DNA of 64,000 nt from Cololabis saira (lineage: Eukaryota; Chordata; Actinopteri; Beloniformes; Belonidae): NCBI RefSeq assembly GCF_033807715.1, contig NC_084587.1, positions 12,544,942 to 12,608,941 on the forward strand, given 5' to 3'. Within the stretch, counting starts at the first letter, position 1; every line of letters begins with the position of its first letter. Below, piece by piece: positions 6,300 to 58,890 of this stretch. Position numbers and translations under genes: made by a program. Below the pieces are notes generated by a model. The model was not told the origin of the DNA, did no database searches, and saw only the letters and a program-made list of their open reading frames with translations.

Positions 6300-7340
6300 A
6301 GCTGCAAGCAGCGATGAACGGGCCCTCTCACCCTTGTGCACGTTCAAGCGTGCTGCAGTGGAAGCATTTGTATGACTTTCATGTAGATTCAGGCCTGGAC
6401 ATTTAGTGGATGACACCAGCCACGACTCTCTATATCCAACCATTCAAAAGTTATGGAATCAGATGAAGGGGTGGGGCTTATTTGCACCAATTATGTTCAA
6501 GGACTCAAAACCATGTCCGATGACACCACCCACATGTCTTTATCACAACCCGTTCAAAAGTTATGGCAGAGAATAGGGACTATCAAATATCGACCAATCA
6601 GAAGAAAAGGCAGGGCTAATTTGCACCAATAATGATCAAGGACTCAAAACTGATTCCGATGACACCACCCACGAGTCTTTATGACAAATGGCAGAAAGTA
6701 GGAACTATCAAAATATGGACCAATCAGATGAAGGGGGGGGGGGGCACGCTTTTTGGGGTCTATCGTCGCCACAGTAACGCTTTTGCCTGAGAAAAGTAAT
6801 GCCCATCGTCGCAGGATGGAGATGCACATTTTGATGTATAACACACCTGGGTGCACGATACGGTTCGGGCCGCATTAACGGCCAAAGAAATGGCATAAAT
6901 TGCGGAGAAATCACACAATTAATTCAAAATTTGAACGATGTCTCTACAATTACAAGTTCAGCCGAGCAATAAGCGTCCAAATTTTTGCCTTTTGTCATCT
7001 AGCGTTGTCACGGTAACACTTTTGACCCATCGAGGCACGATGGAGACGCATCTAACGATGCATGCCATGCATTGGTGCACGTTCAGGCGGCTTTGGTTGT
7101 GTTTGAGTTGGTTCTGTCTGAGGTGGTTCTGGTTGTGTTTGGGGTGGTTAATGGTGCTTCCGGGGTTATTAATGAACCACATCCCCTGCTTTGCAGGAGG
7201 TTTGGTTCTGGTTGTGTTTGGGGTGGTTCTGGCCCTGTCTGAGGTGGTTCTGGATGTATTCAGGGTGTTCAATGAACCAAAAGACTTCGCAGGGGCTGTT
7301 TTGCGACTTCAACTTTGGGCCATTTTGCGATCTGTCTGAA
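6296..7340 (+). mobile_element. 'GCAAGCAGCG' repeat family, copy 1 (unclassified)
   Basis: The block begins TTAAAGCTGCAAGCAGCG, then GATGAACGGGCCCTC and CCTTGTGCACGTTCA. It includes repeated CCATTCAAAAGTTATGG and GATGACACCACCCAC sub-blocks and the CCAATCAGATGAAGGGG segment. The later part (6,760-6,935) is the reverse complement of the piece at 32,800-33,000. The end (7,080-7,290) is a G/T-rich minisatellite built from GGTGGTTCTGGTTGTGTTTG-like units, with a short foldback (CCCCTGCTTTGCAGGAGG near 7,180). It has no coding capacity. Other copies are at 58,567-58,890, 32,565-33,242 and, as short heads, in both arms of the foldback at 16.8-25 kb. The superfamily could not be decided from the sequence. 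Confidence 0.65.
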
Positions 7341-15751: not shown

Positions 15752-16554
15752 TTAAGCCTTGTGCTGTCTTCGGGTCAAGGGAGGGTGAAAGGAGAAAATA
15801 AGGAAGGAAGGAAAGAAGGGAGAAAAGAAGGAAGGAAGGGATTAAGGAAAGAAGGAAGGAAGGAAGGAAGGAAGGAAGGAAGGAAGGAAGGAAGGAAGGA
15901 AGGAAGGAAGGAAGGAAGGAAGGAAAGAAGGAAGGAAGGGAGAAAACAAGGTAAGAAGGAAAGAAGGGAGAAAAGAGGAAGGGAAGAAGGAAGGAGAGAG
16001 CAGGAGGAAGGAAGCAAGGAAGGAAGGAAGGAAAGAAGGAAGAAAGGAAGTAAGGAAGGAAGGAAAAAAATAAGGAAGGCATGGAGGAAAGAAGGAAGGA
16101 AGGGAGGAAAGAAGGAAGGAAGGAAAAAAGGAAGGGAGGAAAGAAGGAAGGAAGGAAGGAAGGAAGGAAGGAAGGAAGGAAGGAAGGAAGGAAGGAAGGA
16201 AGGAAGGAAGGAAGGAAGGAAGGAAGGAAGGAAGGAAGGAAGGAAGGAAGGAAAGAAGGAAGGAAGGAAGGAAGGGAAAAAAGAATGAAGGAAGGAAAGA
16301 AGGAAGGAAGGACAGAAGGAAGGAAGGAAGGAAGGAAGGAAGGAAGGAAGGAAGGAAGGAAGGAAGGAAGGAAGGGAAGAAGGAAGGGAGAAAAGAAGGA
16401 ATGAAGGGAAAAAAGAAGGAAGGAAGGGAGGAAAGAAGGAAGAAAAGAAAGAAGGAAAGGAGTAAAGAAGGAAGGGAAGAAGGGACGAGAGAGGAGGAGA
16501 AAAGGAGGATAGAAGAATTGGGTCATTTTGACCCAAATACAACACAAGGGTTAA
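15752..16554. mobile_element. MITE whose interior is a GGAA/GAAG microsatellite
   Basis: The outer ends are inverted repeats: TTAAGCCTTGTGCTGT at 15,752 and, at the right, ACAACACAAGGGTTAA ending at 16,554, with GGGTCAA on the left and TTGACCC on the right inside them. The pattern and TTAA ends fit a fish MITE family (Kolobok/piggyBac-like TTAA duplication, inference). From about 15,780 to 16,510 the interior is almost pure GGAA/GAAG repeat with AAA and GGG interruptions. The long frames here (FLPS- or GRKE-repeat proteins) are artefacts of the repeat. Confidence 0.72.
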
Positions 16555-16828: not shown

Positions 16829-17064
16829 CATATTTCAACCCAGTCTCACACAAAAACGTACCCTGCCTACGTTGGTCCAAAGTGCAAAAACGTAGAGGGG
16901 CTACAATATTAGCCCTTGAAATGTATAACTGTTACGTTTTTTTAGCCCTTAAAACGTATAACTGTTACATTTTTCTGCCGATTCGTTTTGCGCCCAAGTC
17001 ACGTGACTTTTAAGATTCTGGCCGTGATACCAACAAACACGGTGGACATGTTTCATTTTTGAGT

Positions 17065-18743
17065 GAAGAAAATCAATATTTTGAGTTAGTTTCTGCATAG
17101 AAATGCGTTTTGATTACATTTCTAGCAATACATATTTCACTTTCATAATATTCACTCAGTAAATGTATATAATCTCTTGCTTGCTCGTGGTTGCAAGGTT
17201 TTTTCAGATCTCGTCAGAATAATGTAAATCTGGAACGTTTTAAAAACGTGAAATGGTTACATTTTTGGTTGCTGTACACGCTGTGAAGAAAATCAATATT
17301 TTGAGTTAGTTTCTGCATAGAAATGCGTTTTGATTACATTTCTAGCAATACATATTTCACTTTCATAATATTCACTCAGTAAATGTATATAATCTCTTGC
17401 TTGCTCGTGGTTGCAAGGTTTTTTCAGATCTCGTCAGAATAATGTAAATCTGGAACGTTTTAAAAACGTGAAATGGTTACATTTTTGGTTGCTGTACACG
17501 CTGTGAAGAAAATCAATATTTTGAGTTAGTTTCTGCATAGCATTTTGATTACATTTCTAGCAATACATATTTCACTTGCATAATATTCACTCAGTAAATG
17601 TATATAATCTCTTGCTTGCTCGTGGTTGCAAGGTTTTTTCAGATCTCGTCAGAATAATGTAAATCTGGAACGTTTTAAAAACGTGAAATGGTTACATTTT
17701 TGGTTGCTGTACACGCTGTGAAGAAAATCAATATTTTGAGTTAGTTTCTGCATAGCATTTTGATTACATTTCTAGCAATACATATTTCACTTTCATAATA
17801 TTCACTCAGTAAATGTATATAATCTCTTGCTTGCTCGTGGTTGCAAGGTTTTTTCAGATCTCGTCAGAATAATGTAAATCTGGAACGTTTTAAAAACGTG
17901 AAATGGTTACATTTTTGGTTGCTGTACACGCTGTGAAGAAAATCAATATTTTGAGTTAGTTTCTGCATAGAAATGCGTTTTGATTACATTTCTAGCAATA
18001 CATATTTCACTTTCATAATATTCACTCAGTAAATGTATATAATCTATTGCTTGCTCGTGGTTGCAAGGTTTTTTCAGATCTCGTCAGAATAATGTAAATC
18101 TGGAACGTTTTAAAAACGTGAAATGGTTACATTTTTGGTTGCTGTACACGCTGTGAAGAAAATCAATATTTTGAGTTAGTTTCTGCATAGCATTTTGATT
18201 ACATTTCTAGCAATACATATTTCACTTTCATAATATTCACTCAGTAAATGTATATAATCTCTTGCTTGCTCGTGGTTGCAAGGTTTTTTCAGATCTCGTC
18301 AGAATAATGTAAAACTGGAACGTTTTAAAAACGTGAAATGGTTACATTTTTGGTTGCTGTACACGCTGTGAAGAAAATCAATATTTTGAGTTAGTTTCTG
18401 CATAGAAATGCGTTTTGATTACATTTCTAGCAATACATATTTCACTTTCATAATATTCACTCAGTAAATGTATATAATCTCTTGCTTGCTCGTGGTTGCA
18501 AGGTTTTTTCAGATCTCGTCAGAATAATGTAAAACTGGAACGTTTTAATAACGTGAAATGGTTACATTTTTGGTTGCTGGACATGCTGTGGAAAAAATCA
18601 ATATTTTGAGTTAGTTTCTGCATAGAAATGCGTTTTGATTACATTTCTAGCAATACATATTTCACTTTCATAATATTCACTCAATAAATGTACATAATCT
18701 CTTGCTTGCTCTGGTTGCAAGGTTTTTCAGATCTCGTCAGAAT
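17065..18743 (+). repeat. Left-arm tandem array, 8 units of 215-220 bp
   Basis: Units start at about 17,065, 17,285, 17,505, 17,720, 17,935, 18,155, 18,370 and 18,590 (GAAGAAAATCAATATTTTGA). Three of them (from 17,505, 17,720 and 18,155) are 5 bp shorter (CATAGCATTTT instead of CATAGAAATGCGTTTT). Each unit carries ACGTTTTAAAAACGT followed by GTTACATTTTT, a motif also seen in the terminal module. The last unit is truncated and joins the second terminal-module copy at 18,744. Confidence 0.92.
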
Positions 18744-18858
18744 ACCCTGGCTACGTTGGTCCAAATGCAAAAACGTAGAGGGGTTACAATATTAGCCCTT
18801 GAAATGTATAACTGTTACATTTTTCTAGCCCTTGAAATGTATAACTGTTACATTTAAG
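18744..18858 (+). repeat. Internal copy of the terminal module (left arm)
   Basis: CCCTGGCTACGTTGGTCCAA through the two GTATAACTGTTACATTT blocks repeats 16,860-16,980. The 220-bp array is thus bracketed by two direct copies of the terminal module. The mirror copy in the right arm is about 23,213-23,330. Confidence 0.85.
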
Positions 18859-19168
18859 GAAAAATAAAATTGCTGCCATTTCTTTGATTCTCGGTCTAAA
18901 TTGCAATATTTTAAGATAGTTTCGCCATGAAAAGCAGATTTTATCATATTCATAGCAAGAAATATATTTTGGTTATTTTACCCTCATTTAATGGAACTTA
19001 TTGACGGAAATGTATGAACCATGTGCTTGTTTTACTTCCTTTGAGTAATAAAACCACCAATTTTCTTGCATGGCCCCGTTATTAAAATATATGCCAGGCC
19101 CAGTGCTTAATATCTAAAGTGGGAGGTCCCGGAGCGCAGACGATGAGTGGCTCCGGTGCGAGAGAAAA

Positions 19169-19169
<1 letters not shown>

Positions 19170-19206
<37 letters not shown>
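19170..19206. repeat. (CA)n tract in left arm
   Basis: An A run and about 17 CA units. The mirror (TG)n tract at 22,840-22,901 is nearly twice as long. Confidence 0.9.
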
Positions 19207-19207
<1 letters not shown>

Positions 19208-19528
19208 TTGAACTGTCCGTTTTGACGTTAACGGCGATTTTCACAATGATATCTGCAACATTTCTTAAGGCAGAAACACCACTGTATCATTGTTAATTAC
19301 ACAACATTAGTAGTTAATTTCCTGCAAACCAATTTTCATGTTTTTCCCTTCGATTGTGAGAAAAAAAAGAGTTGTTTCACGCTGAGAGCATCATGCCAGC
19401 CAATCAGAATCCTGGAAAAAACATCAACAAATGACACGTGTAACTTCCAGGCTGATTTATGGTTCCGCGTTACACCAACGCAGAGCCTACGGCGGAAGTG
19501 ATACTAGTAGCTGATTGGCCGATATGTG

Positions 19529-19562
<34 letters not shown>

Positions 19563-19655
19563 CCACCATCATCATCATCATCATCATCACCATCATCATC
19601 ATCATCGCTACCACCATCATCATCATCACCATCACCATCATCATCATCATCATCA
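19529..19655. repeat. (ATC)n tract in left arm
   Basis: Imperfect ATC trinucleotides, about 126 bp. The poly-His, poly-Ile and poly-Asp frames here are artefacts. The tract ends at a reverse-oriented GCAAGCAGCG head (AAGCTGCAAGCAGCGATGAA on the minus strand, 19,682-19,705). Confidence 0.92.
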
Positions 19656-19879
19656 GTCAAGTCAAATTGCACGTGCGAGGTCCCGTTCATCGCTGCTTGC
19701 AGCTTTAATTTATATATAACTATTTTAACATTTCTAAACACAAAAACACGAAAGTGTCCTTGATAATTCAATAATACAATAGGTTCATGTTAAGGACATC
19801 CGTTTTAATTAGTTCTCCTCCGATTATGAGATGTTATTAATGCTCAGTAGACACAGGACGTTTGTTATGTATTGTTATG

Positions 19880-20620
19880 AGGCCTATTTCGTGTCTATTT
19901 TTGAACAGTTCACTAATGCTTTGAGCTAGGAAGCTGAAATTCTAGACTCTGTATCAAGAGGTGACTTTCATCCACTGTGTGGATTTTCAGATCTGTGTGA
20001 CCTTCGGAAGTGTCAAAGGTCACCCCGTCTGTTGCTTTTCGGCCTGCTAAGACTATTTCGTGTCTTTTTTTGCATAGTTCACTAACGCTTTGAGCTAGGA
20101 AGCTGAAATTCTAGACTCTGTATCAGGACGTGACTTTCATCCACTGTGCGAATTTTCAGATCTCTGTGACCTTCGGAAGTGTCAAAGGTCACCCCGTCTG
20201 TTGCTTTTCGGCCTGCTAAGACTATTTCGTGTCTTTTTTTGCATAGTTCACTAACGCTTTGAGCTAGGAAGCTGAAATTCTAGACTCTGTATCAGGAGGT
20301 GACTTTCATCCACTGTGCGAATTTTCAGATCTCTGTGACCTTCGGAAGTGTCAAAGGTCAGCGCGTCTGTTGCTTTTCGGCCTGCTAAGATTATTTTGTG
20401 TCTTTTTTTGCATAGTTCACTAACGCTTTGAGCTAGGAAGCTGAAATTCTAGACTCTGTATCAGGAGGTGACTCTCATCCACTGTGCCGAGGTCCAGACC
20501 CGTGCAACCTTCGGAAGTGCCAAAGGTCACCGTGTGTGGTGCCTTTTTCGTGCCTTTTTTGTGTGTTTTTTGAATAATTCACTAACGCTTTGAGCTGGGA
20601 GGCTGATTTTTGACTATGTT
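19880..20620 (+). repeat. Left-arm inner tandem array, 5 units of 169 bp
   Basis: The landmark TTGAGCTAGGAAGCTGAAAT occurs at 19,921, 20,090, 20,259 and 20,428, with a diverged fifth at 20,590. Units contain TGACCTTCGGAAGTGTCAAA. The mirror array is at about 21,371-22,110, and one decayed partial unit lies in the central spacer (about 21,029-21,082). Confidence 0.9.
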
Positions 20621-20908
20621 GCAATGCAGAAGGCCCTTTGCTAGGATCTTTTGGTCTTGTGGCTGTACGACTTCCACAGAGCTAGTTGGCATTGCAGAGG
20701 GTTTACAGAGTTGAGACTTGGTAAGCCCAATTTAAGCCCCATATGGAGGCCACAGGTCAAGTTTTACTTGGTTTGGTCAAATATTGTGGCAACGGTGTCC
20801 GTTCGAATGTTGGAAAAGGTGACGTTTCAAAGCCCCGCCCATCGAAAAGTACAGGTCTGATCTGCACCAAACTAACGTCTGTCTGATCAGGGGATGCCCC
20901 CGAACAAC

Positions 20909-21084
20909 ATATAAAAAATTCTGATTTCTATGACTTCTGCAACAGTGTTTCCTCTAAAACGTTCTGGCTGGTTAGGAGGGTGTAGAAACCTCTAGCTCTG
21001 AGAGACTCCTGACTAATGGAACAGGGCCTATTTTGTGTCTTTTTTTGCATAGTTCACTAACGCCTTTAGCTAGGAGTCTGAATT
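20909..21084. other. Central spacer (loop) of the foldback
   Basis: About 176 bp without inverted counterpart, between ATGCCCCCGAACAA (ending 20,908) and its complement (from 21,085). It has no ORF and includes a partial 169-bp-array unit (GCATAGTTCACTAACGCCTT). Confidence 0.8.
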
Positions 21085-22322
21085 TGTTCGGGGGCATCCC
21101 CTGATCAGACAGACGTTAGTTTGGTGCAGATCAGACCTGTACTTTTCGATGGGCGGGGCTTTGAAACGTCACCTTTTCCAACATTCGAACGGACACCGTT
21201 GCCACAATATTTGACCAAACCAAGTAAAACTTGACCTGTGGCCTCCATATGGGGCTTAAATTGGGCTTACCAAGTCTCAACTCTGTAAACCCTCTGCAAT
21301 GCCAACTAGCTCTGTGGAAGTCGTACAGCCACAAGACCAAAAGATCCTAGCAAAGGGCCTTCTGCATTGCAACATAGTCAAAAATCAGCCTCCCAGCTCA
21401 AAGCGTTAGTGAATTATTCAAAAAACACACGAAAAAGGCACCACACACGGTGACCTTTGGCACTTCCGAAGGTTGCACGGGTCTGGACCTCGGCACAGTG
21501 GATGAGAGTCACCTCCTGATACAGAGTCTAGAATTTCAGCTTCCTAGCTCAAAGCGTTAGTGAACTATGCAAAAAAAGACACAAAATAATCTTAGCAGGC
21601 CGAAAAGCAACAGACGCGCTGACCTTTGACACTTCCGAAGGTCACAGAGATCTGAAAATTCGCACAGTGGATGAAAGTCACCTCCTGATACAGAGTCTAG
21701 AATTTCAGCTTCCTAGCTCAAAGCGTTAGTGAACTATGCAAAAAAAGACACGAAATAGTCTTAGCAGGCCGAAAAGCAACAGACGGGGTGACCTTTGACA
21801 CTTCCGAAGGTCACAGAGATCTGAAAATTCGCACAGTGGATGAAAGTCACGTCCTGATACAGAGTCTAGAATTTCAGCTTCCTAGCTCAAAGCGTTAGTG
21901 AACTATGCAAAAAAAGACACGAAATAGTCTTAGCAGGCCGAAAAGCAACAGACGGGGTGACCTTTGACACTTCCGAAGGTCACACAGATCTGAAAATCCA
22001 CACAGTGGATGAAAGTCACCTCTTGATACAGAGTCTAGAATTTCAGCTTCCTAGCTCAAAGCATTAGTGAACTGTTCAAAAATAGACACGAAATAGGCCT
22101 CATAACAATACATAACAAACCTCCTGTGTCTACTGAGCATTAATAACATCTCATAATCGAAGGAGAACTAATTAAAACGGATGTCCTTAACATGAACCTA
22201 TTGTATTATTGAATTATCAAGGACACTTTCGTGTTTTTGTGTTTAGAAATGTTAAAATAGTTATATATAAATTAAAGCTGCAAGCAGCGATGAACGGGAC
22301 CTCGCACGTGCAATTTGACTTG

Positions 22323-22423
22323 ACTGATGATGATGATGATGATGGTGATGGTGATGATGATGATGGTGGTAGCGATGATGATGATGATGGTGATGATGAT
22401 GATGATGATGATGATGATGGTGG

Positions 22424-22514
<91 letters not shown>
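22323..22514. repeat. (GAT)n tract in right arm
   Basis: The mirror of the left (ATC)n tract, about 65 bp longer, with the longest uninterrupted GAT run in its distal half. It is preceded by the GCAAGCAGCG head (22,273-22,300). Confidence 0.92.
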
Positions 22515-22836
22515 CACATATCGGCCAATCAGCTACTAGTATCACTTCCGCCGTAGGCTCTGCGTTGGTGTAACGCGGAACCATAAATCAGCCTGGAAGT
22601 TACACGTGTCATTTGTTGATGTTTTTTCCAGGATTCTGATTGGCTGGCATGATGCTCTCAGCGTGAAACAACTCTTTTTTTTCTCACAATCGAAGGGAAA
22701 AACATGAAAATTGGTTTGCAGGAAATTAACCCACTAATGTTGTGTAATTAACAATGATACAGTGGTGTTTCTGCCTTAAGAAATGTTGCAGATATCATTG
22801 TGAAAATCGCCGTTAACGTCAAAACGGACAGTTCAA

Positions 22837-22839
<3 letters not shown>

Positions 22840-22901
<62 letters not shown>
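22840..22901. repeat. (TG)n tract in right arm
   Basis: About 31 TG units; counterpart of the left (CA)n. Confidence 0.92.
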
Positions 22902-22905
<4 letters not shown>

Positions 22906-23330
22906 TTCTCTCGCACCGGAGCCACTCATCGTCTGCGCTCCGGGACCTCCCACTTTAGAAATTAAGCACTGGGCCTGGCATATATTTTAATAACGGGGCC
23001 ATGCAAGAGAATTGGTGGTTTTATTACTCAAAGGAAGTAAAACAAGCACATGGTTCATACATTTCCGTCAATAAGTTCCATTAAATGAGGGTAAAATAAC
23101 CAAAATATATTTCTTGCTATGAATATGATAAAATCTGCTTTTCATGGCGAAACTATCTTAAAATATTGCAATTTAGACCGAGAATCAAAGAAATGGCAGC
23201 AATTTTATTTTTCCTTAAATGTAACAGTTATACATTTCAAGGGCTAGAAAAATGTAACAGTTATACATTTCAAGGGCTAATATTGTAACCCCTCTACGTT
23301 TTTGCATTTGGACCAACGTAGCCAGGGTAT

Positions 23331-24800
23331 TCTGACGAGATCTGAAAAACCTTGCAACCAGAGCAAGCAAGAGATTATGTACATTTATTGAGTGAATATT
23401 ATGAAAGTGAAATATGTATTGCTAGAAATGTAATCAAAACGCATTTCTATGCAGAAACTAACTCAAAATATTGATTTTTTCCACAGCGTGTCCAGCAACC
23501 AAAAATGTAACCATTTCACGTTATTAAAACGTTCCAGTTTTACATTATTCTGACGAGATCTGAAAAAACCTTGCAACCACGAGCAAGCAAGAGATTATAT
23601 ACATTTACTGAGTGAATATTATGAAAGTGAAATATGTATTGCTAGAAATGTAATCAAAACGCATTTCTATGCAGAAACTAACTCAAAATATTGATTTTCT
23701 TCACAGCGTGTACAGCAACCAAAAATGTAACCATTTCACGTTTTTAAAACGTTCCAGATTTACATTATTCTGACGAGATCTGAAAAAACCTTGCAACCAC
23801 GAGCAAGCAAGAGATTATATACATTTACTGAGTGAATATTATGAAAGTGAAATATGTATTGCTAGAAATGTAATCAAAATGCTATGCAGAAACTAACTCA
23901 AAATATTGATTTTCTTCACAGCGTGTACAGCAACCAAAAATGTAACCATTTCACGTTTTTAAAACGTTCCAGATTTACATTATTCTGACGAGATCTGAAA
24001 AAACCTTGCAACCACGAGCAAGCAAGAGATTATATACATTTACTGAGTGAATATTATGAAAGTGAAATATGTATTGCTAGAAATGTAATCAAAACGCATT
24101 TCTATGCAGAAACTAACTCAAAATATTGATTTTCTTCACAGCGTGTACAGCAACCAAAAATGTAACCATTTCACGTTTTTAAAACGTTCCAGATTTACAT
24201 TATTCTGACGAGATCTGAAAAAACCTTGCAACCACGAGCAAGCAAGAGATTATATACATTTACTGAGTGAATATTATGAAAGTGAAATATGTATTGCTAG
24301 AAATGTAATCAAAACGCATTTCTATGCAGAAACTAACTCAAAATATTGATTTTCTTCACAGCGTGTACAGCAACCAAAAATGTAACCATTTCACGTTTTT
24401 AAAACGTTCCAGATTTACATTATTCTGACGAGATCTGAAAAAACCTTGCAACCACGAGCAAGCAAGAGATTATATACATTTACTGAGTGAATATTATGAA
24501 AGTGAAATATGTATTGCTAGAAATGTAATCAAAACGCATTTCTATGCAGAAACTAACTCAAAATATTGATTTTCTTCACAGCGTGTACAGCAACCAAAAA
24601 TGTAACCATTTCACGTTTTTAAAACGTTCCAGATTTACATTATTCTGACGAGATCTGAAAAAACCTTGCAACCACGAGCAAGCAAGAGATTATATACATT
24701 TACTGAGTGAATATTATGAAAGTGAAATATGTATTGCTAGAAATGTAATCAAAACGCATTTCTATGCAGAAACTAACTCAAAATATTGATTTTCTTCACT
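23331..24800 (-). repeat. Right-arm tandem array, 7 units of 215-220 bp
   Basis: Reverse complement of the left array, with the TTGATTTTCTTCAC landmark near 23,470, 23,691, 23,906, 24,127, 24,347, 24,567 and 24,787. Only one unit (about 23,880) carries the 5-bp-short variant. One unit fewer than the left arm explains most of the arm-length difference. Confidence 0.9.
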
Positions 24801-25033
24801 CAAAAATGAAAAATGTCCACCGTGTTTGTTGGTATCACGGCCAGAATCTTAAAAGTCACGTGACTTGGGCGCAAAACGAATCGGCAGAAAAATGTAACAG
24901 TTATACGTTTTAAGGGCTAAAAAAACGTAACAGTTATACATTTCAAGGGCTAATATTGTAGCCCCTCTACGTTTTTGCACTTTGGACCAACGTAGGCAGG
25001 GTACGTTTTTGTGTGAGACTGGGTTGCATATTT

Positions 25034-27735: not shown

Positions 27736-28134
27736 AAGTGAAAATTGGTGTTGGAAACATTTTGACCAAAACTATTAATGTACAGTATAAGGTAGATAGA
27801 AGTGGTCCTAAATCCAATCTCGGGGGCATGCATTTGGATGCACTAAGTGAGCTTGAAATGAAACCTGCCTGAATGCAATGAGACCTGCATGACAGATAAT
27901 TTTTGAACCAAACAGACAGCTTTCTTTTTTTTTTTGATAGCATTGATAAGTCTTTGTTTCAGAATAGTATGGACCACAGTATCAAAAGCCTCCGATAAGT
28001 CAATAAAAGGGGCTTTAAAATATTGTTTATTATCTAAACATTCAATAAAATCATTTACTACTTTTATGGCAGCTGTGTTTGTGCTGTGCTTTTTCCTAAA
28101 ACCAAATTGAGGGTCAGATAAAATTTGGAGATTG
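27736..28134 (-). pseudogene. L2-type LINE, RT fingers and palm start (broken)
   Basis: The frame reads LSDPQFGFRKKHSTNTAA, then FIDLSEAFDTVVHTIL (motif A, catalytic Asp present), IKKKKKAVCLVQK, then a decayed motif B (CMPPRLDLGPLLSTLY where the family has G-x-PQGS-x-LGPLL). The ADD box lies beyond the MITE. Upstream, at 28,135, the reading frame runs without a stop into a Harbinger Myb-like protein (see findings). Confidence 0.78.
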
Positions 28135-28815
28135 GCCTGTGCGCGGTGGCGCGGTGCAGGACACGCCGTGCCGGGAACCTCCTCGTCACCCACCGCTTCC
28201 AACTGTAGACTGACTGATGACATAAATAAGTGCCGGGCCATTCTCCTCTTGGCCTCCACCTTCAAATCACACCACTTCTTTTTTATTTCTGCCACAGATC
28301 TGTCCGTGGTACTCACGGCGTTTAGTGCAGCAACGACGTGCTGCCACTCACTCGCTTTCTTTTTGTTAGTGATGTCACTACTGTGACCACCAAATAATGT
28401 CGTTTTCCTGGCCTCCACCTCATCCACAACATCTCGATCTCCGTGAAATTTAGTGGCACGGTGACCTGGCTCGACACATGTCTCATTCATCCTGACGCAC
28501 AGCAGAAACAGACTGCAGGCAAGCGCTGCGCATGCTCAGCAGGCTCATTTATATGCAAATTATATATGCAAAGTCATCAAGTATTTTGCATTGACCATTC
28601 AAGGTATAAAGTGGGCGTGTAGAGGGTGGAATATGAGGCAAATTCACGTGCGTAACCTTCCAGCTGGACTGTGATTTATAAAGAGAACATTGCGTGCAGA
28701 TGTGCGTGGACACGGTTTTATAAATCAGGATTTTTTTGTGTGCACGCCATTTTCGGCTTTTGAGCGCAAGTACACTTTTAGTATGAATCCTACGCACACT
28801 TTTATAAATGAGGCC
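28135..28815 (-). mobile_element. PIF/Harbinger fragment with Myb-like ORF, truncated
   Basis: The outer terminus GGGGCCTCATTTATAAA (minus strand, about 28,799-28,815) is of Harbinger/ISL2EU type. From a start at 28,490 the minus strand encodes a Myb/SANT-like DNA-binding protein of the kind that accompanies Harbinger transposases (NAIF1-like): VVDEVEARKTTLFGGHSSDI, KKASEWQHVVAALN, and AEIKKKWCDLKVEAKRRM, a trihelix in order. Such proteins recruit the transposase to the transposon ends. The fragment ends abruptly at about 28,135, where L2 sequence resumes; the other terminus and the transposase are absent. Confidence 0.7.
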
Positions 28816-31610: not shown

Positions 31611-32089
31611 AGGCTCAGTTATGGTTCTGCGTCACACCAACGCAGAGCACACGCCGCAGCCGTGACGCCGTGCTGAACCCTTCAGACTTCTCCGTCTCTC
31701 CATTTGGTCGCGGTGCAGTACCCCCCGCGGCCACTAGTTAGCGATCTTTTTCTGAATGGTTTATCCGACTTTTTCCGGTCACAGTAAATCAAAGAAATAA
31801 GGACAACTATTGTGCAAAAAACAAAAACAAAAAAAATCACACATAAACGAAGAAAAGAGCCCTGGAAGTTCACTACTGATTCAAACCGGAAACCGGAAAT
31901 GCTTCGCTTTCAAACGAACCAATCACAGCCCTCTCGGTCTGCGTGTGTACGGCGTCTCCTCGACGCGTAGTTACAATTTTCGGGAGGTGCACGTCAGTGA
32001 CGGCGCAGGTGACGGCGTGTCCTCTGCGTCGATCCAAACCACACGCCGTAGGCACGGCGCCATTTTGACGCAGAAGCATAACTGAGCCT
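31611..32089. mobile_element. Harbinger-type MITE, copy 1
   Basis: The termini AGGCTCAGTTATGGTTCTGC (31,611) and GCAGAAGCATAACTGAGCCT (ending 32,089) are inverted repeats. TAA is duplicated (31,608-31,610; 32,090-32,092), a 3-bp signature of PIF/Harbinger. The interior is CpG-rich near both ends with repeated ACGC and has no transposase. It shares its core (AAGGACAACTATTGTGCAAA, AACCAATCACAGCCCTCTC) with the copy at 47,726-48,180. Confidence 0.8.
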
Positions 32090-32564: not shown

Positions 32565-33242
32565 TGTGCATTGAGGCTTCTTGCTTTGGGAATCCCGGTC
32601 TGTGATTGGACCGTGCCTCGGTGTTGCCGCTGCTCATTTGCATAAAGTTGAGATACTCTCAACTTCAAATTCACGCACTGGAGGCCTCCGACGCCTCTTG
32701 CAGTGAGCTTTCATTGAAAATGAATGGCAGTCGAATGAATGGCCGTCGAATGAATGGCCGAAACCAAACAGGAAGTCAGCCATTTTGAATTAATCGTGTA
32801 ATTTTGGCGCAATTTATGCCATTCCTTCGACTGCTTCTTCGCCCGAACCGCAACATGCACCCAGGTGTGTTAGACATCAAAATGTGCGTCTACATCTTGC
32901 GACAATGGGCATTACTTTTCTCAGTGAAAAGCGTTACCGTGGCGACGATAGACGCCAAAAAGCGCAACCCCCCTTCATTTCATTGGTCCATACAGATAAA
33001 AAATCATGCCTAAAGCCCCACAATACGGTTTGACATACATGCACGAAAATCGGTACACACCTGTATCATGTTGCAACTTAAAGAAAAGTCTCTTCGCGCC
33101 ATGGCCGAAGGCAAAGAAGAAGTTGGCCATTTTAAATTAATCGTGTAATTTTGGCGCAATTTATGCCATTCCTTCGGCAGTTAATGTGGCCCCAACCGTA
33201 ACGTGCACCCAGGTGTGTTATACATCAAAATGTCCGTCTAGA
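32565..33242 (-). mobile_element. 'GCAAGCAGCG' family, internal part (reverse), with inner duplication
   Basis: The region 32,795-32,990 is the reverse complement of 6,740-6,935 (AATTTTGGCGCAATTTATGC; GCACCCAGGTGTGTTA; CAAAATGTGCGTCTA). The block with GGCGCAATTTATGCCATTCC is repeated at 33,125-33,240, so two copies lie head to tail. A three-fold GAATGAATGGCCGTCGAAT-like repeat occurs at 32,720-32,765. The head (GCAAGCAGCG) is absent. Confidence 0.6.
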
Positions 33243-42896: not shown

Positions 42897-43634
42897 TTAT
42901 CCATTCCCGGGTCGCGGGGGCAGCAGCCTCAGCAGGGATGCCCAGACTTCCCTCACCCCAGACACTTCCCACAGCTCTTCCGGGGGGAGTCCGAGGTGTT
43001 CCCAGGCACGCCGAGAGACATAGTCTCTCCAGCATGTCCTGGGTCTTCCCCGGGGTCTCCTCCCGGTGGGACATGCCTGGAACACCTCCCTAGGGAGGTG
43101 TCCAGGAGGCATCCGATACAGATGCCCAAGCCACCTCAGCTGACTCCTCTCAATGTGAAGGAGTAGCGGCTCGACTCCGAGCTCCTCCCGGGTGACCGAA
43201 CTCCTCACCCTATCTCTAAGGGAGCGTGCAGCCACCCTGCGGAGGAAACTCATCTCGGCCGCTTGTATCTGCAATCTTGTCCTTTCGGTCACTACCCAAA
43301 GCTCATGACCATAGGTGAAGGTAGGTGCGTAGATTGACCGGTAAATAGAGAGCTTCGCCTTTCGTCTCAGCTCCTTCTTCACCACGACGGTCCGGTACAT
43401 CGACCGCATAACTGCGGACGCTTCACCGATCAGTCTGTCAATCTCACGCTCCATCGTTCCCTCACTCGTGAACAAGATCCCGAGATACTTGAACTCCTCC
43501 ACCTGAGGCAGGACTTCTCCACCCACCCGGAGAAGGCACGCCACCCTTTCCCGGTGGAGAACCATGGCCTCGGTCTTGGAGGTGCTGATTCTCATCCCTG
43601 CCGCATCGCACTCGGCCACAAACCGCCCCAGCAC
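42897..43634 (-). pseudogene. Rex3 RT thumb and C-terminal domain
   Basis: An open frame of 245 codons carries RISTSKTEAMVLHRERV, EEFKYLGILFTSEG, MYRTVVVKKELRRKAKLSIY, TYGHELWVVTERTRLQIQAA, EMSFLRRVAARSLRDRVRSS, RWLGHLYRMPPGHLP, and the terminal LLRLLPPRPG. This is the connection/thumb and C-terminal region of Rex3, in the usual order and free of stops. It follows the FADD box in the neighbouring frame, so a frameshift separates them. Confidence 0.9.
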
Positions 43635-43830
43635 ATGCTGAGGTCCCGGTCCGATGAAGCCAACAGGACAACGTCATCCGCAAAAAGCAGAGACAAAATC
43701 CTGTGGTTCCCAAACCGGATCCCCTCCGGCCCCTGGCTGCGCCTAGAAATCCTGTCCATAAAAATTATGAACAGGACCGGTGACAAAGGGCAGCCCTGCC
43801 GGAGTCCAACATGCACCGGGAACAAGTCTG
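43592..43830 (-). pseudogene. Rex3 RT palm (motifs B and C)
   Basis: HVGLRQGCPLSPVLFIIFMD (motif B) and LSLLFADDVVLLASSDRDL (motif C with the two catalytic aspartates). Motif A, which should precede it, is missing because the sequence jumps from the linker (ending near 43,883) to motif B within about 60 bp. Confidence 0.9.
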
Positions 43831-43882
43831 ACTTACTGCCGGCAATGCGAACCAGACTCCTGAGGGGCCCCGGACTCCATAA

Positions 43883-44329
43883 TCACCGAGCACCCCCCAC
43901 AGAATGGCACGAGGGACACCGCCCGACGATATCCCCAGTCGAGGTCAACAGCTCCCCACCCACACCATAAACGGTGCCGGCAGAGTACTGCTTCCCCCTT
44001 CTGAGGCGCCGAACGGTCCTCCAGAATTTCCTCGAGGCCGACCGAAAGTCTTCCTCCATGGCCTCCCCAAACTCCTCCCAGACCCGGGTTTTTGCCTCCA
44101 GGACCGCCCGAGCCGTGGCTCGCTTGGCCTGCTGGTACCTATCTACTGCGTCAGGAGTCCCACAGGCCAACATAGCCCGAAAGGACTCCTTCAGTCTGAC
44201 GGCATCCTGTACTTCCGGTGTCCACCACCGGGTTCTAGGATTACCGCCACGACAGGCACCAGAGACCTTGCAACCACAACTTCGCCGCGTCGACAATGGA
44301 GGCAGAGAACATGGTCCACTCGGACTCAA
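43883..44329 (-). pseudogene. Rex3 endonuclease-RT linker
   Basis: TRWWTPEVQDAVRLKESFRA, LACGTPDAVDRYQQAKRATA, EEFGEAMEEDFRSASRKFWR, TVRRLRRGKQ then LLTSTGDIVGR. This linker is typical of Rex3/RTE proteins. The frame ends by stop after the deletion breakpoint. Confidence 0.88.
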
Positions 44330-44987
44330 TGTCCCCCGCCTCCCCCGGGATCCGAGAGAAGCTCTCTCGGAGGTGGGAGTTGAAGATGTCCCTGACAGAG
44401 GGCTCGGCCAGACGTTCCCAACAGACCCTCACAATCCGTTTGGATCTGCCCGGTCTGTCCAGCCTTCTCCTCCGCCAGCGCATCCAACTCACCACCAGGT
44501 GGTGATCAGTTGACAGCTCAGCCCCTCTCTTCACCCGAATGTCCAAGACATGCGGCCGAAGGTCAGATGAAACGACAACAAAGTCGATCATTGACCTCCG
44601 GCCTAGGGTGTCCTGGTGCCACGTGCACAGATGGACACCCTTATGCCTGAACATGGTGTTCGTTATGGACAAACTGTGACTAGCACAGAAGTCCAACAAC
44701 AAAACACCGCTCGGGTTCAGATCGGGGAGGCCGTTCCTCCCAATCACGCCTCTCCAGGTATCACTGTCATTGCCCACGTGAGCGTTGAAGTCCCCCAGTA
44801 GAACAATGGAGTCCCCAGTTGGAGCACTATCCAGTACCCCTCCCAGGGACTCCAAGAAGGCCGGGTACTCCGCACTGCTGTTCGGCCCGTAGGCACAAAC
44901 AACAGTGAGGGACCTTTTCCCGACCGGAAGGCGCAGGGAAGCGACCCTCTCGTTCACCGAGGTGAACTCCAAAAGAACTTCAAAAAC
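44241..44987 (-). pseudogene. Rex3 AP endonuclease, C-terminal two thirds
   Basis: [41 protein letters not shown] (catalytic D and N), [36 protein letters not shown] and [18 protein letters not shown] (catalytic D-H). These residues complete the endonuclease active site. The N-terminal third (with the first Asn and Glu) is absent, typical of 5' truncation during insertion. Confidence 0.9.
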
Positions 44988-45079
44988 GATGTTCTATTAA
45001 ACTGTTCCTGGGGCTCGTTTAAAAAAAAAAAAAAAACTTTTTTCCCATTTTTGCTCTCATAAACCTCAGTTTTTGCCAT

Positions 45080-55343: not shown

Positions 55344-56385
55344 TTAATTTTTCAGCACACTATTGCACTGCAATGTGAAAGCAGCTCTGAGTGCAAGTCC
55401 TCGTTGGACTGGCATGGGCACATCTGAATCATTCTGGTCTTCCATTGGAGGGTCAGGACAATTATACTGCTTTAGGTAGTTGTGCAGAACAGTTGTAGCA
55501 ATGATCACCTTGCAGCATCTTCTTGGCTCAAAACGAAGTGTATTGCATAAACACTGGAATTGATTTTTCCACACTCCAAACATACGCTTGATCATCCCTC
55601 TAGTGCGAATATGAGCTCTGTTATATCTTTGCTGCTCAGTTGTTGTGGGATGTGGCCAAGGCGTGAATAAATAGGAACTCTGAGCATATCCACTGTCACC
55701 AAGTAGTATTCCACTATGTTGCCCTCTCTCAAACTGAGCACACAATGAAGAGTTGTGAAAAATCCTTGAGTCATGTGTTGCTCCCTTCAAACGGGCAACA
55801 ATGTTTGAAAATTCTAAATTGGGAGTGCATACAGCCTGAACATTGATGGAAAACCAGTTCTTACGGTTCCTGTGCTCCTCAGCATCAGGAGTTGATGGAC
55901 ACTTGATTTCAACATGACATCCATCGATAAAGCCAATCACTCCTGGGAAGTTCCATAGTCCATATTCCATATTCGTAGAATCGCGATTTATAGTTGGCTT
56001 GCTCAGCAGCATCAGGGAACTTAATGTACAGATTTCTCAGTTCACAAATGGCACTGCAGACATTGTGAACTATTCTACACGCTGTTGCTTTGCTGACACC
56101 ACACAAATCACCAGTTTCACGATGAAAGGTTCCAGATCCCAAGAATCTCAAAGTGATCAGAACTTGGAGAGAACTGGGTACAGGCCTTCCTCTTTGAGAC
56201 ATGGAGGAAAGTCTAGGCTCAAGCAAAGTAATTATCTCCAGTACATCTTCTTTGTACATACGAAAGCGGTCTCGGAAAGTTATTTCATCAAACTGATTCA
56301 ATGGATGACTCCTATCCACAAGTATTTGTTTGGCTGGCCTCCGTAGCGAATATTGGTCTTCATTTAGATATTCCAAATACTCCAT
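55344..56385 (-). pseudogene. Harbinger transposase (HARBI1-like, DDE_Tnp_4), frameshifted
   Basis: About 347 codons, the family length, in two overlapping frames (shift at about 55,910-56,010). The N-terminal part has FRDRFRMYKEDVLEIITLLE, GRPVPSSLQVLITLRFLGSG and the HTH-like VSKATACRIVHNVCSAI. The catalytic part has GVIGFIDGCHVEIKCPS (first Asp), ARLKGATHDSRIFHNSSL (second Asp), GDSGYAQSSYLFTPWP, and YNRAHIRTRGMIKRMFGVWK, where the third acidic residue (Glu in the family, in the form V-I-E-R-x-F-G) is Lys. The enzyme cuts and pastes the element. The frameshift and Glu-to-Lys change each would abolish activity. Confidence 0.88.
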
Positions 56386-56649
56386 GCTCCCAAACCATCT
56401 GTGCTCCCTTTCACAAACAGGACTAAACTGAAGTTAAACCTGCCTCTTTGCAGGATTAATATAAACTTAAATTTAGTCCTAGAGTAGCTCTAATCCACCC
56501 TCTTGCAATTGGCTTTGTTTAATCCAGAACAGACTAAATCTATGACTATTTTAAGATATGTCTGTGCAAGTGACTTAAAGTTAAGCCAGCTCAAACAGCA
56601 TTTTAGTCTGAGACTAGGCTTAAGCCTTGTCTGTGAAACCGGGCCTATG

Positions 56650-58566: not shown

Positions 58567-58890
58567 AATTAAAGGTGCAAGCAGCGATAAAAGGGCCCTC
58601 GCACCCTTGTGCATGTTCAGGCGTGCTGCAGTGGAAGCTTGTATGACTTGCATGAAGATTCTTCAGGCCTGGACATCTAGCGGGTGACCAGCCACGACTC
58701 TCTATGTCAAACCATTCAAAAGTTATTGCAGAGAATAGGAACTATCACATATCAACCAATCAGATAAAGGGGCGGGGCTAATTCATGCCAATGAAGGTCA
58801 AGTACTCAATACCGAGTCTGATGACACCACCCACATGTCTTTATCACAACCCGTTCAAAAGTTATGGCAGAGAATAGGGACTATCAAAGT
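58567..58890 (+). mobile_element. 'GCAAGCAGCG' repeat family, copy 4
   Basis: It begins TTAAAGGTGCAAGCAGCG after AATAATAAT, then GGGCCCTCGCACCCTTGTGC, CCATTCAAAAGTTATTG, CCAATCAGATAAAGGGG and GATGACACCACCCAC, matching 6,296-6,600 in order. Confidence 0.8.

Follow-up and report, generated by a model that had tools for sequence, protein, structure and literature searches.

The 64-kb window analysed here, by which we mean the whole stretch of DNA under study, is contained in a host genome of 1.146 Gb and carries at 16,836-25,026 an inverted-repeat foldback element of 8,191 bp, with the 7-bp sequence CATATTT directly outside both ends. We consider with good confidence that this element is a non-autonomous foldback that derives from a KDZ (Kyakuja-Dileera-Zisupton) transposon, and the transposase that it lacks is probably a KDZ transposase.

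Architecture of the foldback element

The element consists of two long inverted arms around a short spacer, and its features are given below (strands in brackets, where assigned).

16,829-16,835: left target-site duplication CATATTT (comparison of ends and duplications)
16,836-20,907 (+): left foldback arm, 4,072 bp, starting CAACCCAGTCTCACACAAAAACGT (end comparison and arm alignment)
17,063-18,744 (+): 220-bp tandem array, 7.7 copies, the full units containing GTTACATTTTT, a candidate transposase-binding motif
18,743-18,855 (+): internal direct copy of the end region (16,859-16,972), about 94% identical
19,884-20,531 (+): 169-bp tandem array, 3.8 copies
20,651-20,860 (+): 69-codon open frame, no Pfam match
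20,908-21,083: central spacer, 176 bp, axis about 20,995
21,084-25,026 (-): right foldback arm, 3,943 bp
21,131-21,340 (-): mirror 69-codon frame
21,449-22,096 (-): 169-bp tandem array, 3.8 copies
23,217-23,329 (-): right-arm internal copy of the end region
23,328-24,799 (-): 220-bp tandem array, 6.7 copies
25,027-25,033: right target-site duplication CATATTT (comparison of ends and duplications)

The termini, which read CAACCC...GGGTTG, are exact inverted copies of each other, and the first end-to-end mismatch falls at base 215. Global alignment of the two arms gave 3,836 matches and 15 mismatches in 3,851 aligned bases, as well as five gap events; the two longest gaps measure 210 bp, roughly a 220-bp unit, and 63 bp, the latter within an (ATC)n stretch. 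From the outside inwards, each arm is composed of an end region with 33-bp repeats, the 220-bp array, a second copy of the end region, (AC)n, (ATC)n, the 169-bp array and a single-copy block. These measurements agree with a first, sequence-only reading of the window, which had described an 8.19-kb element with exact inverted ends, CATATTT on both sides, arms of about 4 kb and a 176-bp spacer; the identical 69-codon frames that it had placed in mirror positions about the axis were found as well. At an E threshold of 0.1 the left frame matched nothing in Pfam; the idea that the mirrored frames code for a protein was dropped on this ground, and the frame is probably not a gene. In addition, an open-frame scan revealed no long gene in the element, and a tRNA scan found none.

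The motif GTTAC[A/G]TTTTT, chosen by eye, is present 10 times in the left arm, nine times in mirrored orientation in the right arm and nowhere in the other 55.8 kb of the window, and it sits in every full 220-bp unit as well as in the end region. By analogy with Galileo of Drosophila, the tandem repeats of which hold transposase-binding sites (PMC3688188), this motif may be a binding site for the transposase of the element.

A stretch of 43-50 bp at about 19,452-19,501, together with its mirror, was observed in both arms, in other elements, at 31,611-31,656 in the window and at a further locus (L059). Because it is mirrored, this stretch is older than the arm duplication or was copied between the arms.

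A young family of elements with the same ends

A search of the host genome with the 24-bp terminus, allowing at most two mismatches, returned 429 forward and 401 reverse matches, and the total of 830 is far beyond chance, since a reversed control pattern returned none. Among the matches listed (100, all exact), 90 form 45 inward-facing pairs of 1,959-29,857 bp (median 9,565), and an exact 7-bp target duplication was found in 32 of the 34 head-to-head pairs tested, on many chromosomes and at varied targets; the two pairs lacking it are at C6:36.82M (a 2-kb pair) and C13:24.94M (a 19-kb pair). Two copies (L027 and L028) are inserted in other repeats, which makes paralogous empty sites readable. 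A single GATGAAG was present in all four related sequences shown for L027, and the two closest empty sites (97.4% over 700 bp, and 87.9%) align without gaps around it; the best related empty sites of L028 have the target once, with a single-base change. These sites are paralogous, not orthologous, and bear on the L027 and L028 insertions, not on that in the window. The window element is thus a real transposon and belongs to a set of hundreds of young copies that share its ends; its insertion was accompanied by a 7-bp duplication. A foldback DNA transposon with such a duplication had been predicted from the window, and the genome-wide matches, the duplications and the paralogous empty sites now support that prediction. 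The further suggestion that the element may be undescribed also stands: our literature search, one broad query of which was swamped by unrelated teleost papers, gave no published description of it, and 'zisupton' and 'foldback' co-occurred in a single paper of the literature searched, in which Zisupton stands as a reference title.

To describe the family, we compared 15 elements, namely the window copy and 14 of the 18 loci read at length; L019, L021, L022 and L026 were excluded for an unreached far end or a gap in the sequence. Divergence was determined in the single-copy parts of the arms for arm pairs with more than 800 comparable bases, and a second terminal-like copy in L014 was dropped. 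The two arms of one element diverge by 0.52% on average (10 elements) and the arms of different elements by 0.69% (263 comparisons), so the arms of a copy resemble each other only slightly more than they resemble those of other copies, and the nearest relative of an arm was its own partner for 8 of 20 arms. Together, these values point to a recent burst of the whole family and, judged by them, the 15 elements are one young family. The near-identity of the arms had previously been ascribed to either recent insertion or ongoing conversion between the arms. The former is in line with the youth of the family, whereas the latter is not needed, and the same comparison led us to reject it as the principal reason why the arms are so alike; at most, some exchange between arms may have taken place.

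The mirror structure is preserved to different degrees among the 15 elements. The innermost arm block is kept on both sides in eight of them, including the window copy and L024, which lost other parts of one arm; six (L014, L015, L018, L025, L027 and L028) lack part of the inner arm sequence, for the most part on one side, and one is a 2-kb remnant with outer parts only. The spacer is retained wholly or partly in five of the six inner-deleted copies and is lost in L025. Stubs of about 67 bp (L014) and 31 bp (L028) of the deleted arm remain beyond the spacer, which indicates that the full foldback came first in these two copies, and we infer the same order for the remaining inner-deleted copies. 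The number of 220-bp units ranges from 0 to 14 per arm and is often unequal between the arms of one copy, and L018 also carries a nested reverse-transcriptase frame.

Several minor observations concern the ends and insertion sites of the family. Related empty copies of the repeats hit by L027 and L028 are found in the window at 6,410-6,898, 32,814-32,992 and 58,687-58,877. At C13, two left-type ends lie 4 kb apart (3280129 and 3284181, both +) and are followed by a right end (3291792, -), possibly representing a nested or rearranged copy. A variant terminus, CAACCCAGTCTCACAGGAAAACGTGGTACA, lies inside arms at L014:1616/2301, L018:2567/7299, L021:3842, L027:3524/7031, L038:2979 and L050:74, and is preceded by a nearly fixed sequence, with one base different in L038. 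A butterflyfish microsatellite primer (locus Lun05), as given in the available text of PMC3298945, contains CAACCCAGTCTCACA, the first 15 bases of the terminus; this could possibly reflect a related element in another fish, or chance.

A KDZ transposase gene between the same ends

The largest listed pair, at C12:17,367,692-17,397,548 (29.9 kb), is flanked on both sides by CCTCAGC and was sampled by one 10-kb piece and short probes. An exon in its middle matches Pfam PF18758 (KDZ transposase) with an E value of 1.4e-16; a second frame matches the same profile weakly, below the cut-off, and later frames resemble further KDZ exons by eye, with their DNA recurring at roughly 68-82% at many other loci. 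Two short upstream frames that may be further KDZ exons had no Pfam match, and a PDB sequence search with the KDZ exon gave one match at E 0.62, which is not meaningful. The 220-bp array was found at four of four probes placed 3.8-5.3 kb into the left arm, and the right array begins about 3.7 kb inward of the right end, a position judged by 18 identical bases at the margin of the piece examined. The mobilizing transposase had been called unseen in the sequence-only reading. This holds for the window copy, in which none is encoded, but not for the family, because the proposed search for a larger relative with a transposase between the same ends yielded one, the 29.9-kb C12 copy, which supplies a strong candidate.

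A genome search with the PF18758 profile gave 17 matches at a smaller number of loci, the best being the C12 copy. Eleven of the 17 matches are on C1-C13, and one of these 11 lies inside a listed pair, the listed pairs making up about 0.07% of C1-C13 (with one chromosome length approximated). In addition, a 155-bp sequence is present in inverted orientation (97%) just inside the right array of the C12 copy and just upstream of the KDZ gene, and the gene therefore lies within an inner inverted repeat. A KDZ relic at C11 has 79 bp of this inner repeat (92%) 2.5 kb upstream, at the same spacing as in C12, and outward of this stretch is a 17-base match to the 220-bp unit. These sequence comparisons tie together the KDZ gene, the inner repeat and the array-bearing arms. 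The 155-bp sequence also occurs at two places in a 19.1-kb pair at C13. Downstream of the KDZ gene, the C12 copy contains high-copy repeats and has thus been invaded by other elements. The KDZ exon had 133 relatives in the protein collection; among the matches listed (120), the named ones are from fishes, with identities of up to 91% across part of the exon, and three others, the nearest of all, are 91-93% identical. The vertebrate host assumed in the sequence-only reading is consistent with these fish relatives, on the strength of which we take the host to be probably a teleost.

Our data suggest a model in which the window element would be moved by cut-and-paste by a KDZ-superfamily transposase supplied in trans, and both ends would be bound through the repeated motif GTTAC[A/G]TTTTT mirrored in the arms. 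Larger elements that share these ends and have 220-bp-array arms would encode the transposase, the C12 copy being the one found, and in the foldback copies the gene would be replaced by other interior DNA, inverted-duplicated between the arrays. This interior (the single-copy blocks, the 169-bp array and the spacer) was not seen in the C12 pieces read, apart from the 43-50-bp stretch that occurs elsewhere too. The mirror would then decay by internal deletions, mostly in one arm and probably during palindrome repair or replication.

Several observations weigh against this derivation from a KDZ transposon. A PF18758 match was found with these ends in one copy only, and essentially as a single exon. 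A piece 5.8 kb into the left arm of the C12 copy (L081) is not array. The 19.1-kb C13 pair has neither a KDZ match nor a target duplication, and at five further KDZ loci (C18, C5, C11, C7 and C9) none of 20 probes of 120 bases, positioned according to the C12 spacing, detected an array; next to the C11 relic, the array-like match extends over no more than 17 bases. As the C12 copy was read as one 10-kb piece and short probes, a small residual probability attaches to the KDZ element being nested in a larger element. Furthermore, the KDZ group with the closest duplications and ends, fungal Kyakuja, is described as lacking terminal inverted repeats (TIRs) (PMC12730594), whereas the arms here are long and inverted.

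A second KDZ family was also observed, with identical profile scores at C3:54.27M, C17:30.38M, C12:26.92M and C7:42.73M and a half-match at C12:4.01M. The identical scores at four loci suggest that this family is probably young; its loci on C3, C12 and C7 lie outside the listed CAACCC pairs, which do not extend to C17.

Relation to known transposons and other features of the window

Compared by form alone, the element resembles FB of Drosophila, which has a different host and makes a longer target duplication. FB likewise consists of long inverted arms around a variable loop (PMC4022104). Tetris, a non-autonomous foldback of Drosophila virilis, has tandem repeats of about 220 bp in long inverted arms, and the available text of PMC4079207 reports no autonomous partner for it; the shared repeat length, compared by length alone, is probably a coincidence.

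The structural parallel to weigh is Galileo, a P-superfamily foldback of Drosophila with 7-bp duplications, long and internally repetitive TIRs that extend into inner sequence, unequal repeat numbers between arms and first-found copies made up of TIRs only (PMC3573991, PMC3688188). The element here might accordingly be a foldback of the Galileo type that a P-superfamily (THAP9-like) transposase mobilizes, with the KDZ gene of the 29.9-kb copy as a later nested insertion, and the genome does hold numerous P-type transposases (52 PF21787 matches from 77 scored candidates), including 285-codon frames with identical scores at C8:40.64M, C15:26.12M and C22:36.28M that probably represent a young P family. 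We nevertheless regard this explanation as improbable. The longest D. mojavensis arms quoted for Galileo are about 1.26 kb, compared with about 4 kb here, the two fish P families in the literature available to us make 8-bp duplications, and the terminal CAACC departs from the YARNG consensus of P elements (PMC2820524). The element here begins CAACCC and the gene found between such ends, in the C12 copy, is KDZ, whereas none of the 30 P-type matches on C1-C13 falls within a listed pair, a partial test, as the pairs derive from the first 100 exact ends. Nesting of the KDZ gene is also disfavoured by the inner inverted repeat and its recurrence at the C11 KDZ relic.

It is very improbable that the element is a foldback of another superfamily with duplications of about 7 bp, either a Mutator-like element (MULE) or a hAT element, since MULEs usually duplicate 8-10 bp and the duplication here is exactly 7 bp in 32 of 34 pairs. 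Most foldbacks do seem to belong to Mutator (PMC4079207), and fungal hAT families with 7-bp duplications exist (PMC12730594). However, when 19 copies or partial copies were scanned for frames of at least 110 codons and eight longer frames were run against Pfam, one matched a reverse transcriptase (L018) and seven had no match, the genome not having been searched with MULE or hAT profiles. That the structure is a satellite, a segmental inverted duplication or an assembly artefact, and not a mobile element, deserves next to no credence: long palindromes that contain tandem arrays are difficult to assemble and a run of N is present at the related locus L019, but the sharp identical ends, the 7-bp duplications on many chromosomes and the paralogous empty sites contradict it.

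Within the KDZ group, to which we assign the element, Kyakuja of fungi offers the nearest likeness, with 7-bp duplications, CA..TG termini and a KDZ transposase; the fungal families also carry TET/JBP genes, and no foldback forms are mentioned in the available text of PMC12730594. Because of the mismatch in TIRs, the element is filed under KDZ and not under Kyakuja. Zisupton was first described from fish, and a Zisupton affiliation proper was rejected, as Zisupton and a Dileera family make 8-bp duplications (PMC12730594), in contrast to the 7 bp here. Dada was rejected as well, since it inserts into multicopy small RNA genes and has no TIRs (PMC3706591), whereas varied targets and long TIRs were found here.

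We further think it reasonably likely that the foldback form had an independent origin here, in a vertebrate Kyakuja-like KDZ lineage whose multi-kilobase 220-bp-array arms would serve as many-site landing pads for the transposase, and which would recently have seeded about 400 largely palindromic derivatives, perhaps still mobile. In the parts of the literature searched, foldbacks are known from insects, nematodes and rice and are tied to Mutator or P-type transposases, and the form is not tied to KDZ. If true, the KDZ link would mean that arms built of repeated binding sites evolve again and again, irrespective of the transposase involved, and hundreds of young copies would be available as natural substrates of KDZ. 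Inversions, deletions and double-stranded RNA are also likely to stem from palindromes of several kilobases that occupy several hundred sites in this genome.

Other mobile-element remains are present in the window. An open frame at 55,347-56,036 (-) matches DDE_Tnp_4 (3.2e-31) and belongs to what we take to be a Harbinger-like transposase; the adjoining frame at 55,912-56,433 (-) had no Pfam match. One frame at 27,846-28,535 (-) runs from a Myb/SANT-like domain (2.5e-14) into a weak reverse-transcriptase match below the cut-off and is perhaps two elements joined, and a probable relic of a non-long-terminal-repeat retrotransposon occupies 42,900-44,993 (-), with an endonuclease match at 44,244-44,993 (8.4e-9). 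Finally, an AAGG-rich tandem array of 684 bp (15,800-16,483) ends about 350 bp before the foldback element.

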